Assembly: GCF_000316625.1 (NCBI RefSeq)
Contig: NC_019676.1
Location: 1,661,001 to 1,725,000, forward strand
Direction: 5' to 3'
Source of the DNA: Nostoc sp. PCC 7107
GTDB lineage: Bacteria > Cyanobacteriota > Cyanobacteriia > Cyanobacteriales > Nostocaceae
DNA: 64,000 nt
Part shown: in pieces, positions 36,689-45,037 of the stretch
How positions within the stretch are numbered: position 1 is the first letter of the stretch
Layout: the number at the start of each line of letters is the position of its first letter
Made by a program: the position numbers and the translations under genes
Notes under the pieces: generated by a model
Database searches by the model: none
What the model was told of the DNA's origin: nothing
What the model saw: the letters and a program-made list of their open reading frames with translations, nothing else

Positions 36689-39600
36689 TCAAATCCCTGT
36701 AATTATAAATCCTGCCCAATAATAAGGATGATTGTATGGCTTTTTATCAGGCACAATTTTGCTAATTCTATATAAATGTGTGGCTAAATAGGTTCTAATT
36801 CTTAATTCATCAGGATGCAGAGTTTTGATTAAATTTTCATACCATATAGTCAATTCTCCGGCTGTAACTTCTTGCAACCATGTAGTAGCTTCTGTTAAAG
36901 CGGTGTTTGATGATTTATTTACTTGGAGTCGGCGATAAAATTCGATAATTAATAAGGCGCTGGCAGATGATTCAACGTTCCAAAGAGTGCTGATAATTTG
37001 GGGAACTCCGCCACAAAGAAAACTATTAACTATCGAGACATATTCTGTAGCCACACTCTGGTTTATATTACTCACAAATTTACAGGCTGAGAGTAATACT
37101 AAGTCGTAACTAGTAAGATTTTTTTGGCAGATTTCTGTAAGTGTCAGTTTGTCTTCCCCAGCTAATATCAATTCTGATTTTGTCGGTTCAACAAAATTGT
37201 TAATAACTTGACCTGTAAAATGAAAAATATTGAAATTTTCAGATAATGCCTTCTCTACATTAGTTTTATTTGCTGCTTCCTCTTGGATACGATGAGGATA
37301 ATCAAACATTTGGCTAATCACTTCTGATTCCAATTTGGTAAATTTTGGTGGAGAATAATTTGCCTTAGCGGGAGATTCAATACTGAGAAATTTTTGTTCT
37401 CGCAATTGCTCTATATTTCTTGGTTGTAAGTTTACACCTATTTGGATGCTAGGCAAATAATTAGTAATAAATCTCGACTGAATATGTAGGTTTTCTGATT
37501 CAGAATTAGGCAGGTTAAATAGAACATGTAAAGGTAATCTTGATAAATCGCGGTGAGGTATTAAAATCAGATTTGTGATGCCTTCAAGTTCCTGGGTAAT
37601 TGTGGAAATTTCCAGAAGTTTTTGCAGATGTAAGAGTCTGTGTTCCATCTGCGATCGCCAAGGATGATTACTTTTAGTTTGCGGGTCTTGGGCTTGGTCG
37701 CAATAATCTTGGTATGTTTGATGCCAATCTTCTAACCAATGTTCAAATGCAATCAGTCTTCTAGTCGCTTCTGGTAAAGGTAACTCTTGCAGCGGCTTAC
37801 TAATTTCTGATGATCTATTTCCTAGTTCTTGGACAGGAGTAAATACCAAAATAGGTGAGGGAGCGCCATCTTTAATAATAAAGGTGTGCAGAGCAGCGGG
37901 GCTAATATGCCAGTAAATAATTGCGGTGGTGGGGTTAAGTAAATGTTGAACTGAACTATAGTTGAGGGAATAAATTTCATCTTGCCAGCTAAACAGCAAC
38001 CACTGTAAACAAGCATTTTTGATCTGTTCTGCTAGTTCCCAAGCTTCTACCAAATCACCAGATTCTACTAAAAAATCAACGCCTAATTGCCCAATTCCCG
38101 CAAATCTGAGTGCCAACTGTTTTTTACTTTCATCAGAACGCCCAGGGTCACTAAATAATTCTTGCAATAAATTAGCGGCACGTTGTTGTAATTCTTGTGC
38201 TTGTGTAGTTTGCCCTAAACCCAACAGGACTTTAATTAAAGATTGCAGTATTTCTAAATGTAGTAGGGGAAATCCTTCCCAACTGAGAGTTAATAATGCT
38301 TGATTATATTCAAATACAGATTTGCGCCAATGTTGCCGGGGTGCAGGTTGTTTTTTACCTTGTTCATAATGGGTATTACCAATAGCTAAATGCAGCCTTC
38401 CCCAACCCTCTGGGTGAGTATCTGGGCGGATATATTTTAACCCTTGTTCATAGCTGGCGAGTTTACCTGCGTAACCACCTTGTTTTAAGGCGGGGTTAAT
38501 GGCGGCGACGTTAGTTAATAAATGCTCAAGTGTTTCTGTATCAGGTACATGACCGATCGCTGTACCTCGACCAATCCAAGCTTCCCAATAATCGAGTTTG
38601 ATTTGTAAGGCGTTGTCATAAGCCACGATCGCCTCAGTATATCGTTCTAAATAAAACAGGGCGACGGCTTGATTGTACCAAGGGAGGTGAAAGTCAGGTT
38701 TGATAGCGATCGCTTTTTGATAGGAGGCGATCGCTTCTTCTCTTCTGACTAAGTTATCTAGCGCTACACCTCGGTTATACCAAGCTAAATAAAAATCAGG
38801 TTGAGCAGCCAGGGCTTTATCCCAAGAAGCGATCGCTTCTGACCACTGTTTTAAATTAAACAGCACCACACCCCGGTCAATCCAAACTTCGTAATAGTCT
38901 GGTTGTAGTTCTAACGCTTGATTGTAAGAGGCGATAGCTTCTGTATATTGCTCACTCACAGCAAAAGCAATACCCCGGTAATACCATGTTTCCGGGTCTT
39001 GGGGTTGCAATTCTAAGGCTTGATCGTAACTGGTAATGGCCTCCCAAACTTGCCCTAATTTCAGCAGCGCTAGAGCCTTACTCGCCCAAGCTTCTGGATA
39101 ATTGGGATGGATTTCGATGGCTTGACTAAAAGACGCGATCGCTTCGGCAAATAATCCCAATTCTCCCAAAGTTCCGCCGCGATTGTACCAAGCTTTGTAA
39201 TGGTCTGGTTTCAGGTCAATCGCTGTGTCATAGGCCGCCACGGCTTCAGCGAAACGTTCTAAATGGAACAAAGTCAAGCCGCGATTAAACCAATATTCAT
39301 AAGATTCCGGTTGCAATTCAATGGCGCGATCATAAGAAGCGATCGCACTTGCCAAATCTCCGGTTTTGGCTTGTTGCAAACCTTGATAAAACCAAGCTTG
39401 TGCTTGAATTGCTGTATTTGCCGGATTAGTTGTCGTAGTCGGAGACGGGTTAGCTTGTGTTGTCAGATTCATCGCCAACTGCTGTACTAAATGTGCGCTT
39501 TGGTCTAACCTTCCCAACAATTCATCTAGAGTATAGGCGACATTTGGATCTAAATTTGCTAAATACTGCTCCCAAGAATTTCCTGAATATTCTTTTCTAA

Positions 39601-40696
39601 CCAGCCTTGTCTGTTCTTCAGGGTATTCCAAAGACAATTCACTTAAATTACCAATCACATCTTCCGCCGCCGGAGCCAGAAAAGCTACTGCTGTGGTCGG
39701 AGCAAATTCCTCTCCAGTATATTCCCAAGAGATTTTTTCCTGATTTTCTGCTGCCATTTCCTGGGGTGATGTAGTAGTGAATTCTTCCCCTGTATACTCC
39801 CAAGCTGATACATCTGTGTTCTCTATTGGATATTCCTGGGGTGATGTAGTGGTGAATTCTTCCCCTGTATACTCCCAAACCGATACATCTGTGTTCTCTA
39901 TTGGATATTCTTGGGGTGATGTACTATCTGCTAATTCTGCTTCTGTGTACTCCCAACGGATTTCTGCTAGATTTTCCGTTGCAATTTCCTGGGGTGGTGT
40001 AGTAATGAATTCTCCCCCTGTATACTCCCAAACTGGTACATCAGTGTTTTCTATAGGAGATTCTTGAGGTATCGTCCGAACTACAAATTCTTCCCCTGTA
40101 TATTCCCAGATGATTTCTTCGACATTTTCTGTAGAAACTTCATCAACTGCGTTTGCTGGCGGTTGTGCAGTCGCTGGAGGTGCTAATTCGTCATATTCCC
40201 ACAACGATTCACCCAAGTTACGCAGTAAACTTTGTCCCGGAGTATTTACCACAGAATTACTTTCTTGACTCTCCCCAACGGCTTGATCCCATTCATCCGT
40301 ATCCCGCGTCATTAATCGGATACCAATGTCATAGGACAGTTCACCAACTTTGCCAATGTTGAGTTCCCCAAGTTGTACCATCTGCGTTCCTAACTGCTGA
40401 TTAGGCGCAGGTGAGATTAACAATCTTTCACCAAAGCTGAGTAACCAATCTATCCAACGTTCTGTACTAATACGGTCTTCCATGCGTTGGAGATATCTGA
40501 TAGCCCATATTTGTCCTCGTCCTTGATGTACCCCTTCTAGCAGTTGGGTAAACAGAAGTTCCAAATCAGCATTAGTTAATTCAGGAGGTGGTTCTACCAT
40601 CTCCTGTTCCCTAAAGGTTTTTAAAGTCTGTTTACTACCAGTGGGCTGGTTTGAATGTGTTTTAAGCCACTGCCATAGCTGCGTGAGCATCTGCAC
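36689..40696 (-). CDS. TPR-CHAT protein lacking the catalytic His
   Basis: A 1335-residue protein. An N-terminal domain (about 35-135) also found in the next gene is followed by six or so copies of a WEYTGEEF repeat spaced by about 25-30 residues (about 210-340), roughly ten TPRs (about 430-790), a helical linker and a C-terminal CHAT (caspase-like) domain. The nucleophile Cys1205 (LLSACK) is present, but the catalytic His position reads HFTGQV instead of HFAGHG (Gln1163). It may be a non-catalytic CHAT or use another His. CHAT-TPR proteins often act in bacterial defence and cell-death pathways. Confidence 0.82.
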   Translation of the reverse strand: MQMLTQLWQWLKTHSNQPTGSKQTLKTFREQEMVEPPPELTNADLELLFTQLLEGVHQGRGQIWAIRYLQRMEDRISTERWIDWLLSFGERLLISPAPNQQLGTQMVQLGELNIGKVGELSYDIGIRLMTRDTDEWDQAVGESQESNSVVNTPGQSLLRNLGESLWEYDELAPPATAQPPANAVDEVSTENVEEIIWEYTGEEFVVRTIPQESPIENTDVPVWEYTGGEFITTPPQEIATENLAEIRWEYTEAELADSTSPQEYPIENTDVSVWEYTGEEFTTTSPQEYPIENTDVSAWEYTGEEFTTTSPQEMAAENQEKISWEYTGEEFAPTTAVAFLAPAAEDVIGNLSELSLEYPEEQTRLVRKEYSGNSWEQYLANLDPNVAYTLDELLGRLDQSAHLVQQLAMNLTTQANPSPTTTTNPANTAIQAQAWFYQGLQQAKTGDLASAIASYDRAIELQPESYEYWFNRGLTLFHLERFAEAVAAYDTAIDLKPDHYKAWYNRGGTLGELGLFAEAIASFSQAIEIHPNYPEAWASKALALLKLGQVWEAITSYDQALELQPQDPETWYYRGIAFAVSEQYTEAIASYNQALELQPDYYEVWIDRGVVLFNLKQWSEAIASWDKALAAQPDFYLAWYNRGVALDNLVRREEAIASYQKAIAIKPDFHLPWYNQAVALFYLERYTEAIVAYDNALQIKLDYWEAWIGRGTAIGHVPDTETLEHLLTNVAAINPALKQGGYAGKLASYEQGLKYIRPDTHPEGWGRLHLAIGNTHYEQGKKQPAPRQHWRKSVFEYNQALLTLSWEGFPLLHLEILQSLIKVLLGLGQTTQAQELQQRAANLLQELFSDPGRSDESKKQLALRFAGIGQLGVDFLVESGDLVEAWELAEQIKNACLQWLLFSWQDEIYSLNYSSVQHLLNPTTAIIYWHISPAALHTFIIKDGAPSPILVFTPVQELGNRSSEISKPLQELPLPEATRRLIAFEHWLEDWHQTYQDYCDQAQDPQTKSNHPWRSQMEHRLLHLQKLLEISTITQELEGITNLILIPHRDLSRLPLHVLFNLPNSESENLHIQSRFITNYLPSIQIGVNLQPRNIEQLREQKFLSIESPAKANYSPPKFTKLESEVISQMFDYPHRIQEEAANKTNVEKALSENFNIFHFTGQVINNFVEPTKSELILAGEDKLTLTEICQKNLTSYDLVLLSACKFVSNINQSVATEYVSIVNSFLCGGVPQIISTLWNVESSASALLIIEFYRRLQVNKSSNTALTEATTWLQEVTAGELTIWYENLIKTLHPDELRIRTYLATHLYRISKIVPDKKPYNHPYYWAGFIITGI

Positions 40697-41549: not shown

Positions 41550-41769
41550 AAAGTGTATTGTCTACCCTAAGATTGTAGCGATCGCTCTGGACGATGGCGT
41601 TGGTGCAGTTAAGAAAATGTACATTCTTAGTCATTAGTCAATGGTCTGCACTTACTTAGTTCAAATGTACTATAATAAAAAACAGACACGCTGCGTTTAA
41701 AATATGTGAACGCCAAGTTAGGCGTTTAATCTCAAATTTATTCTGAAAATGGACTGACATTTTCCTTCC

Positions 41770-44700
41770 ATGCCTTACGAACCCCTGCACCACAAGTATC
41801 GTCCAAAAAGTTTTGCTGAACTAGTGGGGCAAGAGGCGATCGCTACCACCTTAATTAATGCTATCCGTACAGCTAAAATTGCCCCGGCTTATTTGTTTAC
41901 CGGGCCAAGAGGTACGGGTAAAACATCTAGTGCCAGAATTCTGGCGAAATCTCTCAATTGTCTCAAAAGTGACACTCCAACAGCCGAACCTTGTGGTGTC
42001 TGTGATGTCTGTCAGGGAATCACTAAAGGCTATTCTTTAGATGTAATTGAAATTGATGCGGCCAGTAACACTGGTGTCGATAATATCCGTGAACTGATCG
42101 AAAAATCACAGTTTGCCCCAGTGCAGTGTCGGTATAAAGTATATGTAATAGACGAATGCCTCACTGGAGATTCTCTGGTATTGACTGATGAGGGACTTAT
42201 TAGAATTGACAATCCCAAACTTAAAGGCAAGAGAGTTCTTAGTTATAACGACTCATCTGGCCAATGGGAATTTAAAAAAGTACTTAGATGGTTAGACCAA
42301 GGAGAACGCCCTACTCTGGTCATTAAGACAACGAAGGGCTTAATCAAATGTACTGAGAATCATTTAATTAGAACAGCGCAGGGATGGATACCAGCAAAGA
42401 ACGTAAAAGAAGGAGCGAAGATACTATCCCCTGTGAATGTGGCTGCGGCAACTTCATTTACAAATATGGTACGGATGGACGCATCCGGCGATTTGTTAGC
42501 GGACACCAGTTTAAAGGCAACAAATACGGGCAAAGATCCTACGACTTGGAATCTATTCTTCAAGCAGCAGAATTGCTCCGACCTTTGTGTGCTTGCGGAT
42601 GCGGAGAAAAACTCCATGTCCCTACCTATTTACAGCAAAAAGGTAAAGGCATTACCAGCATACAATCTCATTGGCGAAGAAATCCGTATAAAAAAGGACA
42701 CGGGATTTGGCAACTTAGAACAGAAAGATTTCTGGAAAAAGCCTCTGTTCTACAACCAGAGGTATTCGGACTTATCTACGGCACTTTGCTGGGGGATTGT
42801 GCCATCTCTTACCCCAACAAACACAGTAGATTCCCTAGATTGTGTTGGACACATGGTGAAAGCCAGGGAGAATGGCTGGAATACAAAGCACATCGCCTTC
42901 AACAATTGTGTCCCAAGCTGGGAATTACAGATAACAAAGGATATGGAAACATATCAGTTACCTGTAACACCATGTGTCATCCCCAACTCAAAGATGTCTT
43001 TGAGATCGTCAAACCGAATGGGGATAGAAAAATTGTGTCAATGGACTGGCTCAATCGAATTACTCCAGAAGGACTTGCTTGGTGGTATTGCGATGATGGC
43101 TCACTCAGCCTTACACCAGCAGGTAGCCCTCAAATTCAGTTACATACAGAAGGATTCTCTGCTCAAGAAAACCAACTTATTGCCAGTTGGCTTACAAATA
43201 TGGGATACACAGCAAAAACAAAGTGTTACATCAGAAATAGTACAGGTAAGCAATACAACTATATTTGGATGGGCGCAAATAGTAGTAGAAAATGGTTGGC
43301 AGAACTCCAACAATATTCCATCCCAACAATGGATTACAAGTTTGGAAACGGTAGAATCTGTTCACCTCGATGGAATTGAGCGAGTTTATGATATTGAAGT
43401 CGCGGACAATCATAACTTTGTGGCAAATGGACTTTTAGTTCATAACTGTCACATGCTCAGTACCCAGGCATTCAACGCATTACTCAAAACACTAGAAGAA
43501 CCTCCTAAGCACGTAGTATTTGTACTAGCAACCACCGACCCCCAGCGAGTTTTACCAACAATTATTTCTCGCTGTCAGCGGTTTGATTTTAGACGCATTC
43601 AACTAGAGGCGATGGTGAAGCATTTAAATGCGATCGCCTGGAAGGAAAGTATTGATATTTCCGAAGCAGCCGTCACCTTAGTAGCGCAAATATCCCAAGG
43701 TGGGTTACGGGATGCGGAGAGTTTACTTGACCAATTAGCCTTGTTATCTGGGCAAGTCACACCCGATAGAGTGTGGGATTTAGTTGGTTCCGTCAGCGAA
43801 CGAGATTTGTTAGCATTATTGGGTGCGATCGCTCAAGATAATCCAGAAGCAATTTTAGATTGTAGTCGTTACATCCTTGATCGGGGTAGAGAACCACTAA
43901 CTATTCTGCAAAATCTCGCTAACCTCTACCGCGACTTACTCATTGCCAAAACTGCACCCAATCGCCAAGATTTAGTGGTTTGTACTGGGCAAACTTGGTC
44001 AGCCTTAATTGAATTGGCACAAAATTTACACATCAGTACAATTTTGGCAGGACAACAACACCTGCGAACAGCGGAAGTTCAAATTAAAAATACGACTCAG
44101 CCGCGTTTGTGGTTAGAAGTAACATTGCTCGGATTATTACCCAGTGCCAGTATTCAGCCAGCCGCCACAGTTGTTTTACCAAAAGTCAGCATACCTGCAC
44201 CACAAAATAATCATCACCCATCACCACCAGCAACTCAACCAGCCGCCCCAGCACCTTTACAGCAGCAAGCTATCTCACCGCCACCACCACCAATTACTTC
44301 ACCAGCACCCACACAGCCAGTCACCCCTGTAACAGTGGCCGCAGAATTAGATTTAACCGCAATTTGGCAGCAAGTACTCAGCAACATTCAGCAAATTCCC
44401 CGTCGGGCATTGTTAGGGCAAATGTGCCATCTCATAGAATTTGATGGTAATAGTGCGCGTGTAGGTGTAAAACCTGCATGGTACGACAAAGTTAAGTCTG
44501 ATCTCACTATGATTGCAGGTGCTTTTCAGCAGACTGTCAACCGAAACGTTGAAGTGAGTCTTGAAAAAGCTACGGCTGCAACGTCTTCTACCGCAAAAAA
44601 AGAACCATCAAACAACGTTTCTAATGGTGTTCAGCAGCCTGCACCTGCTAAAAACAACAACCATCATCAAGCACCAGCACCGCAGTCCTTCACACCTCCA

Positions 44701-44952
44701 CCAATACAAGTACAGCAATCACCAGTCAAAACCGAATTTTCCGCAAATGGTAATGGTACTGTTAATATCCAACCTGTACCGCCACAACCTACGCAAAATT
44801 CTTCTGAAGAATGGGAAGAAGTGACTAGAGCCGCGCAACATTTAGCCCAATTTTTCGACGGGCAAATTGTCCGCTTTGCCGATGATGGTTCAGAATTCTC
44901 TGGTTCTATGACTCCATCTGACTGGGTAGATGAAGCAGAAGTAGATGATTAG
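41770..44952 (+). CDS. dnaX: DnaX, DNA polymerase III clamp-loader subunit, with intein
   Basis: A 1060-codon dnaX. The N-extein is residues 1-129 (Walker A GPRGTGKT, Cys zinc module, KVYVIDE Walker B) and the C-extein runs from Cys560 (CHMLSTQAFNALLKTLEEPP) through the AAA+ and collar regions to a Pro/Gln-rich tail. Residues 130-559 are an intein between VIDE and CHML, in the middle of the Walker B box. After splicing the DnaX product should be about 630 residues. A -1 slippery heptamer (A AAA AAA) near codon 942 could give a shorter gamma-like product. dnaX is essential, so the intein must splice. Confidence 0.95.
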   Translation: MPYEPLHHKYRPKSFAELVGQEAIATTLINAIRTAKIAPAYLFTGPRGTGKTSSARILAKSLNCLKSDTPTAEPCGVCDVCQGITKGYSLDVIEIDAASNTGVDNIRELIEKSQFAPVQCRYKVYVIDECLTGDSLVLTDEGLIRIDNPKLKGKRVLSYNDSSGQWEFKKVLRWLDQGERPTLVIKTTKGLIKCTENHLIRTAQGWIPAKNVKEGAKILSPVNVAAATSFTNMVRMDASGDLLADTSLKATNTGKDPTTWNLFFKQQNCSDLCVLADAEKNSMSLPIYSKKVKALPAYNLIGEEIRIKKDTGFGNLEQKDFWKKPLFYNQRYSDLSTALCWGIVPSLTPTNTVDSLDCVGHMVKARENGWNTKHIAFNNCVPSWELQITKDMETYQLPVTPCVIPNSKMSLRSSNRMGIEKLCQWTGSIELLQKDLLGGIAMMAHSALHQQVALKFSYIQKDSLLKKTNLLPVGLQIWDTQQKQSVTSEIVQVSNTTIFGWAQIVVENGWQNSNNIPSQQWITSLETVESVHLDGIERVYDIEVADNHNFVANGLLVHNCHMLSTQAFNALLKTLEEPPKHVVFVLATTDPQRVLPTIISRCQRFDFRRIQLEAMVKHLNAIAWKESIDISEAAVTLVAQISQGGLRDAESLLDQLALLSGQVTPDRVWDLVGSVSERDLLALLGAIAQDNPEAILDCSRYILDRGREPLTILQNLANLYRDLLIAKTAPNRQDLVVCTGQTWSALIELAQNLHISTILAGQQHLRTAEVQIKNTTQPRLWLEVTLLGLLPSASIQPAATVVLPKVSIPAPQNNHHPSPPATQPAAPAPLQQQAISPPPPPITSPAPTQPVTPVTVAAELDLTAIWQQVLSNIQQIPRRALLGQMCHLIEFDGNSARVGVKPAWYDKVKSDLTMIAGAFQQTVNRNVEVSLEKATAATSSTAKKEPSNNVSNGVQQPAPAKNNNHHQAPAPQSFTPPPIQVQQSPVKTEFSANGNGTVNIQPVPPQPTQNSSEEWEEVTRAAQHLAQFFDGQIVRFADDGSEFSGSMTPSDWVDEAEVDD
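42157..43446 (+). mobile_element. DnaX intein (430 residues)
   Basis: Starts at Cys130 (CLTGDSLVLTDEG, block A), with block B as TTKGLIKCTENHLI, then a middle of about 320 residues with no LAGLIDADG motif in this frame, and ends with block F VYDIEVADNHNFVANG and VHN before Cys560. Splicing residues Cys1, block-B His, terminal Asn and +1 Cys are all present. The middle region overlaps an endonuclease gene in another frame. Confidence 0.95.
42384..43379 (+). CDS. LAGLIDADG homing endonuclease overlapping the intein in another frame
   Basis: A 331-codon reading frame offset by -1 from dnaX. It begins in the codons after block B (first ATG after an in-frame TAG) and stops just before block F. 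The protein has two N-terminal C-x-C-G-C-G motifs (CECGCGNF and CACGCGEK, probable zinc or DNA contacts) and two LAGLIDADG-type motifs, FGLIYGTLLGDC and GLAWWYCDDGSL, with FSAQENQLIASWL, of the LAGLIDADG_2 family. There is no ribosome site at good spacing, so expression may depend on internal initiation or frameshifting. It should cut intein-less dnaX. Confidence 0.88.
   Translation: MDTSKERKRRSEDTIPCECGCGNFIYKYGTDGRIRRFVSGHQFKGNKYGQRSYDLESILQAAELLRPLCACGCGEKLHVPTYLQQKGKGITSIQSHWRRNPYKKGHGIWQLRTERFLEKASVLQPEVFGLIYGTLLGDCAISYPNKHSRFPRLCWTHGESQGEWLEYKAHRLQQLCPKLGITDNKGYGNISVTCNTMCHPQLKDVFEIVKPNGDRKIVSMDWLNRITPEGLAWWYCDDGSLSLTPAGSPQIQLHTEGFSAQENQLIASWLTNMGYTAKTKCYIRNSTGKQYNYIWMGANSSRKWLAELQQYSIPTMDYKFGNGRICSPRWN
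44595..44601 (+). promoter_or_regulatory. Possible -1 frameshift heptamer in dnaX
   Basis: Seven A residues read as GCA AAA AAA in frame. A slip by -1 would give seven further codons and stop at TAA 44622-44624, mimicking the gamma-producing frameshift of some bacterial dnaX genes. No stem-loop was confirmed downstream. Confidence 0.3.
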
Positions 44953-45037
44953 AAGGTAAAAGTAAAAAGTAAAAAGGCAAAAGTGTCTCAACAGCTAGTA
45001 GATTTTATCGGAGAAGAAGTAATCTCTAGACTTGATA

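Follow-up and report, generated by a model that had tools for sequence, protein, structure and literature searches.

A LAGLIDADG endonuclease gene nested out of frame in the intein of cyanobacterial dnaX

In canonical bifunctional inteins, such as PI-SceI, the HINT domain is split between blocks B and F by DNA encoding an endonuclease, the host is an essential replication gene, and mini-intein derivatives occur. The dnaX intein of Nostoc sp. PCC 7107 shares these features, but its endonuclease is of the I-SceI type (PF03161) and lies in another frame, as a separate putative protein, and a linker that is predicted to be unfolded takes the place of the in-frame domain. The Ssp DnaX and Spl DnaX inteins interrupt the same host gene. 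According to the available sections of PMC3443213 and PMC3620165, the Ssp DnaX intein splices in E. coli when shortened or split; the latter attributes complete or partial putative endonuclease domain sequences to 12 of 14 natural inteins without singling out Ssp DnaX, and the same sections of both papers do not mention an out-of-frame endonuclease. The nearest published parallel in the literature covered is that of PMC11855218, which describes out-of-frame HNH endonucleases in mycobacteriophage methylases, in the ShiLan domain and the Pacc40 insertion. As in dnaX, these lie in an insertion that is open in the host frame and has a disjunct distribution; unlike in dnaX, the host methylase is a non-essential phage gene and the authors found no intein or intron splicing, whereas the dnaX element carries a LAGLIDADG_2 enzyme in a splicing domain. 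I-SceI and I-WcaI have the fold and both motifs in common with the dnaX-nested endonuclease, but they are intron-encoded, lack the N-terminal CxCGC clusters, and do not overlap a protein-splicing domain. In the literature we searched, part of it as excerpts, no account was found of an intein that encloses an endonuclease in a different frame; Gorbalenya 1998 and the Ssp DnaX report of 1997 lie outside this coverage. Because the accessible part of PMC11855218 cites Gorbalenya 1998 (Non-canonical inteins) for overlapping reading frames, and that work may be an earlier notice of the Synechocystis dnaX case, we do not claim first discovery for dnaX. As far as this literature shows, what is new is only the breadth of the phenomenon, the per-frame analysis of selection, the series of decayed inteins, the existence of a second register, and the form with a split host gene.

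The window, i.e., the whole stretch of 64,000 nucleotides that was analysed, comes from a finished genome of one contig (6,329,823 bases); its relatives are Nostoc and other filamentous cyanobacteria. A first-pass annotation made from the letters alone had proposed that dnaX carries a complete intein devoid of an endonuclease in its own frame, and that a full LAGLIDADG endonuclease with two motifs is encoded out of frame between the splicing blocks. The analysis bears out each of these points at the coordinates given in Table 1. The intein starts with Cys1, ends in LVHN, and is followed by a +1 Cys. Relative to the TENH motif, the endonuclease ATG begins 20 nt past the His; its stop codon ends 4 nt ahead of V410, the first residue of the C-terminal splicing motif. 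Position 1 of each endonuclease codon is position 3 of a dnaX codon. A sequencing or frameshift error, which the annotation had named as one way in which it could be wrong, is ruled out because the genome is a single contig and many other genomes show this overlap as well. Elsewhere in the window, positions 36689-40696 (-) encode a 1335-aa protein with internal WEYTGEEF-type repeats followed by TPR-like units, a family named by eye only.

Table 1. Features of the dnaX locus, in positions of the window.
Feature	Position	Strand	Evidence
dnaX (DNA polymerase III gamma/tau) precursor ORF, intein-interrupted, 1060 codons	41770..44952	+	NCBIfam PRK14948, E 4.6e-255
Intein in dnaX frame, 430 aa, between DE and CHML	42157..43446	+	Pfam Intein_splicing 1.5e-12; intein_Nterm 5.3e-6; intein_Cterm 4.8e-9; PDB 7cfv (Spl DnaX mini-intein) 2.5e-39
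Splicing domain, N-terminal half, residues 1-96	42157..42444	+	pLDDT blocks mostly 89-96
dnaX-frame linker, residues 97-388, shadow of the endonuclease gene; open, hydrophilic, without predicted structure	42445..43320	+	pLDDT <50 throughout; pN/pS 1.23
Splicing domain, C-terminal half, residues 389-430	43321..43446	+	pLDDT 87-95 in the last four blocks
331-aa ORF of the putative homing endonuclease, lying within the intein in the -1 frame	42384..43379	+	PF03161 2.8e-22; AlphaFold2 mean pLDDT 83.4; Foldseek I-WcaI 2.4e-11, I-SceI 1r7m 4.8e-11
Presumed ATG start, spanning dnaX codons GGA TGG	42384..42386	+	ATG in 54/57 intact relatives; GGA in 51/55 scored intact relatives
Endonuclease N-terminal part, two CxCGC clusters, zinc-finger-like (label by inspection)	42432..42686	+	near-invariant C17, C19, C21, H41, C69, C71, C73, W97, H100
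LAGLIDADG-type motif 1, LIYGTLLGD (D138)	42771..42797	+	G137, D138 invariant in 24 aligned
LAGLIDADG-type motif 2, LAWWYCDDG (D237, D238)	43074..43100	+	W233, W234, D237, D238, G239 invariant in 24 aligned; aligns to LAYWFMDDG of I-WcaI

The dnaX frame encodes a class 1 intein, with an N-terminal Cys, blocks A and B including TxxH, and a C-terminal His-Asn before the +1 residue. C1, T66, H69, H429, and N430 are invariant in 22 aligned inteins, and the codon of the +1 Cys is TGC or TGT. No endonuclease family of Pfam matches this frame at E up to 1, and no Pfam family of any kind matches its middle. In the structural model, a confident splicing domain encloses a middle (residues 97-388) that has a pLDDT of about 24, below 50 throughout, and no predicted secondary structure. 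The other frame encodes a LAGLIDADG_2 protein of the I-SceI type, with acidic residues in both motifs and a predicted I-SceI fold: I-WcaI and I-SceI are the best Foldseek matches of its model and PI-SceI comes later (2e-6). An endonuclease modelled with the fold of I-SceI, opposite an intein middle modelled without structure, argues that the endonuclease is the ancestral gene, a relative of I-SceI, and that the dnaX-frame linker is its by-product. The initial description of the element as overprinted is thus kept but changes direction, the intein linker being the overprinted part and the endonuclease the old gene. Three relatives (L039, L105, and L106) have longer endonucleases, of 405-441 codons, with extra N-terminal CxCGC units, which suggests repeat expansion of a putative DNA-binding part.

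Both frames are open beyond what chance would allow. With the protein and codon usage of the window endonuclease fixed, the dnaX frame acquired 6.1 stops on average over 1000 synonymous shuffles, only one of which was stop-free. The same procedure on 57 intact endonuclease genes predicts 5.7 dnaX-frame stops per gene (range 2.7-8.2; 0.13% of shuffles stop-free on average) and none is observed in the 57, whereas the third frame behaves as predicted (19.5 stops observed versus 20.6 expected). Conversely, with the dnaX-frame protein fixed, 14.2 endonuclease-frame stops are expected and none is found. This is what had been proposed, namely that selection keeps the two frames free of stops. Amino-acid constraint is seen for the endonuclease frame only. 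Among the 540 pairs, out of 1540, that form the class of highest divergence, substitutions at positions 1, 2, and 3 of the endonuclease codons amount to 0.35, 0.28, and 0.58, and the third position, where differences gather, is position 2 of the dnaX codon. Over 53 closer pairs, pN/pS is 0.21 for the endonuclease, 1.23 for the dnaX-frame middle, 1.41 for the third frame, 0.14 for the extein, and 0.16 for the splicing domain; the statistic is biased for overlapping frames and the pairs are not independent, but the contrast is large. Amino-acid identity is 0.57 for the endonuclease versus 0.30 for the dnaX-frame middle. The suggested test of purifying selection on each frame therefore comes out positive for the endonuclease and negative, at the amino-acid level, for the dnaX-frame middle, which is kept open and hydrophilic and is otherwise free to vary.

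Two further measurements bear on how free the dnaX-frame middle is. Fourfold sites, in 18 independent pairs binned by extein divergence (binning by the divergence of the endonuclease itself exaggerated its slowness), diverge least in the endonuclease core (0.165), more in the splicing domain (0.221), and most in the extein (0.256), the core being lower than the splicing domain in 12 pairs and higher in four. Since these sites are slower in the core, a mild further constraint on the dnaX frame is possible, as is gene conversion. The hydrophilicity of the dnaX-frame middle also exceeds that of the corresponding frame in 18 cyanobacterial relatives from outside dnaX (-0.41 versus 0.03, p 2.6e-4) and, in 56 of 57 cases, what recoding with extein codons predicts. 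It does not exceed that of shuffles with the gene's own codons (-0.39 versus -0.41), so that selection for hydrophilicity is only suggested. At fourfold sites, the third positions of the endonuclease are rich in A (0.34 versus 0.21 in the extein) and poor in G (0.10 versus 0.23).

The overlap is widely conserved, and where it decays it is the endonuclease that is lost. A scan of GTDB contigs returned 17 relatives of Nostocales type, all open in the dnaX frame; 13 have a full endonuclease and the other four carry nonsense codons in the endonuclease frame only. The endonuclease matches at E up to 0.001 in 38 of 388 genomes of the class, and in all 30 class loci that were fetched the match lies inside a dnaX intein and in the same register, none being in frame. 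The order-level search, over 388 genomes that overlap the class set, gave matches in 88, some of them weak and outside dnaX. We extracted 106 inteins from 107 records (L001-L106 and the window, leaving out L093, whose contig ends first), of which 81 are distinct. All 106 can be read through in the dnaX frame without meeting a stop, and their lengths, from 387 to 1566 nt, are all divisible by 3 except in L031, which is cut by a contig end. An endonuclease-frame ORF of at least 275 codons from stop to stop is present, in the same register, in 57 of the 81, counting L027 and L085 although they are truncated. The remaining 24 comprise five inteins of similar size with shorter ORFs, two whose length is about 1 kb, and 17 mini-inteins (387-729 nt); in all 24, the dnaX frame is open and the length is divisible by 3. 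One genome (G084) has a second, shortened dnaX copy (L146:911-2905, minus strand) with its own nested intein, where the endonuclease match contains two TGA stops.

The distribution and phylogeny of the element are those expected of a homing mobile element, sporadic and, to judge from the pattern, spreading horizontally to empty sites. Counting matches that reach into the intein, it occupies the dnaX site in at least 50 of the 388 class genomes, dnaX itself being matched in at least 367, and presence is mixed within single genus codes (e.g., g5). In trees of 54 records, which exclude L099 and L087 for misaligned exteins, supported splits of the exteins contradict six of the 22 supported splits of the endonuclease (by clades, seven of 23 are in conflict, two of these seven being the sides of one split). 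In two species of one genus code (L022 and L039), the exteins are 92% identical and the endonucleases 45%. Identity gradients around the endonuclease are mixed in close pairs, L033 and L035 having inteins more alike than their exteins; the claim of mobility therefore rests on the trees.

We hold it probable that this is a mobile intein made of two overlapping genes, one for a splicing intein with an unfolded linker and one for an independent out-of-frame endonuclease that homes to dnaX. Computation establishes the two proteins and the register that relatives share, selection in the endonuclease frame and the absence of stops from the dnaX frame, as well as the decay series and horizontal movement. 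Frame 1 would be translated through the whole element, and the HINT domain (the first 96 and last 42 residues) would excise itself and join DnaX, the 292 residues in between acting as an unstructured hydrophilic linker. Frame 2 would yield an I-SceI-type endonuclease with N-terminal zinc-finger-like clusters, which would cut intein-less dnaX at the DE/CHML codons and let the element be copied in by repair. Because the dnaX frame must stay open, loss of the endonuclease would proceed by point stops or in-frame deletions and lead to mini-inteins.

How the endonuclease might be translated can be judged from its start. The annotation had placed it apart from the spliced protein, and the different frame agrees with this; separate expression would follow from the gene arrangement, with internal initiation, probably at the conserved ATG of GGA-TGG, as the likeliest route. 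GGA fills this position in most scored relatives (Table 1), and GCA, which also gives ATG, in two more; among Gly codons in general, GGA accounts for 259 of 1123 in the extein and for 189 of 485 in the rest of the splicing domain. The codon is also present in 16 of 17 mini-inteins, which lack the endonuclease, and may therefore simply be inherited, so that conservation of the start is not specific proof. No Shine-Dalgarno match precedes the ATG of the window; among the 57 intact relatives, AGGA lies 10 nt before the start in 21 and no match of at least four bases is found in 30. One sigma-70-like site occurs on the plus strand of 42000-43500, inside the endonuclease gene, versus 2.8 expected in shuffles, and an internal promoter was rejected. 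The endonuclease could instead be made by -1 ribosomal frameshifting, as a fusion of N-extein, intein, and endonuclease. The frame relation is indeed -1, the endonuclease start overlaps the translated splicing domain, and bacterial dnaX genes are known for programmed frameshifting. We nonetheless think this route unlikely: only five of the 57 have an X XXY YYZ heptamer in the stretch from the preceding endonuclease-frame stop to codon 20, at no common site, nearly all have the ATG, and in 53 the endonuclease frame is closed by a stop no more than 10 codons before the start.

The nature of the element itself can be read in other ways. Among the 62 distinct inteins that reach 1100 nt or more, five carry an endonuclease-frame ORF shorter than 275 codons, and L027 and L085 are truncated too, as one might expect of a fossil or chance ORF without function, but the low pN/pS of this frame, catalytic motifs that are near-invariant in 57 sequences, and the roughly 14 stops that shuffles predict in it largely refute such a reading, which we consider extremely improbable. 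Still harder to credit is a reading in which the endonuclease belongs to an RNA intron or twintron and the dnaX frame is open only incidentally. To judge from molecule names, I-SceI-type enzymes are typically encoded by group I introns, and one viral relative (L121) does have a group I intron match; yet Rfam gives no sign of a catalytic RNA, with no intron match in 41700-45000 at E up to 1 and no match at gathering threshold in 12 nested or split viral loci, the intein blocks are complete, and all of the endonuclease-less derivatives retain an open frame of a length divisible by 3. A functional domain in the dnaX-frame middle, with both frames encoding working proteins across 1 kb, would suit its hydrophilicity relative to non-dnaX relatives and its slightly slow fourfold sites, and is highly improbable given that this middle has no Pfam family, is modelled at very low confidence, is far less conserved than the endonuclease, and is missing from mini-inteins. 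Finally, proteins resembling homing endonucleases can serve as regulators or maturases, and the enzyme could be active in a role other than intein homing. This too is very unlikely, as the patchy presence, the conflict between endonuclease and extein trees, and the decay to mini-inteins form the pattern expected of a homing cycle.

The arrangement is not special to dnaX, since viral ORFs for helicases and terminases also enclose members of the same endonuclease family in another frame. When viral contigs, records of phages and plasmids, and 18 cyanobacterial loci other than dnaX were scanned with profiles, this family was found at 112 distinct loci: 12 out of frame within an open host ORF, 25 in frame in a long ORF (sorted by frame alone, intein presence not being checked one by one), and 75 other or free-standing. 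Among the in-frame members, L113 is a viral ORF that also has an intein match, L123 is annotated as an intein-containing RNA ligase of a phage, and L124 is a plasmid protein of the RNA ligase family. Of the 12 nested cases, 11 are viral and one (L146) is cyanobacterial, in the truncated second dnaX copy described above. Four ResIII-type helicases (L107, from Xanthomonas phage FoX3, L108, L110, and L153) have the dnaX register; the gpA-type terminases L111 and L114, the Terminase_6 proteins L163 and L165, and the Hel308-like helicases L167, L170, and L171 have the other. PF03161 is above cut-off in all 12 endonuclease frames. In the host frames, Intein_splicing is above cut-off in L107, L108, L110, L146, L153, and L163, and intein_Cterm additionally in L114, L165, L167, and L171, while the intein call for L111 and L170 relies on weaker matches and a visible C-terminal motif. 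Shuffling five viral cases predicts 2.8-14.5 host-frame stops and none is seen, whereas an alternate frame is stop-free in only two of 100 non-nested loci (medians of 13 and 19.5 stops), both where the match is only partial (31 and 79 residues). In the 18 loci of cyanobacteria outside dnaX, the alternate frames contain at least two stops. The insertion follows DE in both dnaX copies and in nine of the 11 viral cases, L163 and L165 being different.

In the three loci that were examined, out of seven such records, the host gene is split. In coliphage AN_ECEAS (L147) and Pectobacterium phages Amona and Ymer (L148 and L149), the endonuclease sits at the DE-Cys site of the helicase in the dnaX register, with 13, 13, and 10 host-frame stops between the halves (L148, L149, and L147, respectively), and the helicase is annotated as two genes that end and start inside the endonuclease. 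By inspection, the two halves bear N- and C-terminal intein motifs, and each locus thus looks like a naturally split intein whose halves are overlapped by the endonuclease gene. Dassa et al. 2009 reportedly described fractured genes in which split inteins are accompanied by an endonuclease; L147-L149 resemble them in that the host gene is split at the intein with the endonuclease in between, but here the endonuclease overlaps both halves in the dnaX register, and in the window the host frame is unbroken. We put at about even the chances of a wider proposal, that there is a widespread class of dual-coding mobile inteins with a separate out-of-frame endonuclease and a stop-free, meaningless linker. 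This class would have arisen at least twice, once per register, and would move between cyanobacterial DnaX and viral helicases and terminases, largely at one motif (after DE, in the Walker B region), and host-frame stops would finally break it up into a naturally split intein whose halves the endonuclease gene overlaps, the loci of the coliphage and the Pectobacterium phages being examples.

Overlaps of about 1 kb in which both products can be recognised are rare in bacteria, and here the roles are clear, one frame folding and being selected and the other being merely passable. With 57 intact and 24 decayed inteins, several hosts, and two registers, the element offers a replicated natural experiment on the constraint that a second frame imposes. 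It accounts for long inteins that seem to have no endonuclease, hints at a path from nested to split inteins, and implies that homing endonucleases are missed if only the host frame of inteins is scanned. If the wider proposal is true, the endonuclease is uncoupled from the spliced precursor, and its dose and timing would be free to evolve apart from those of DnaX.
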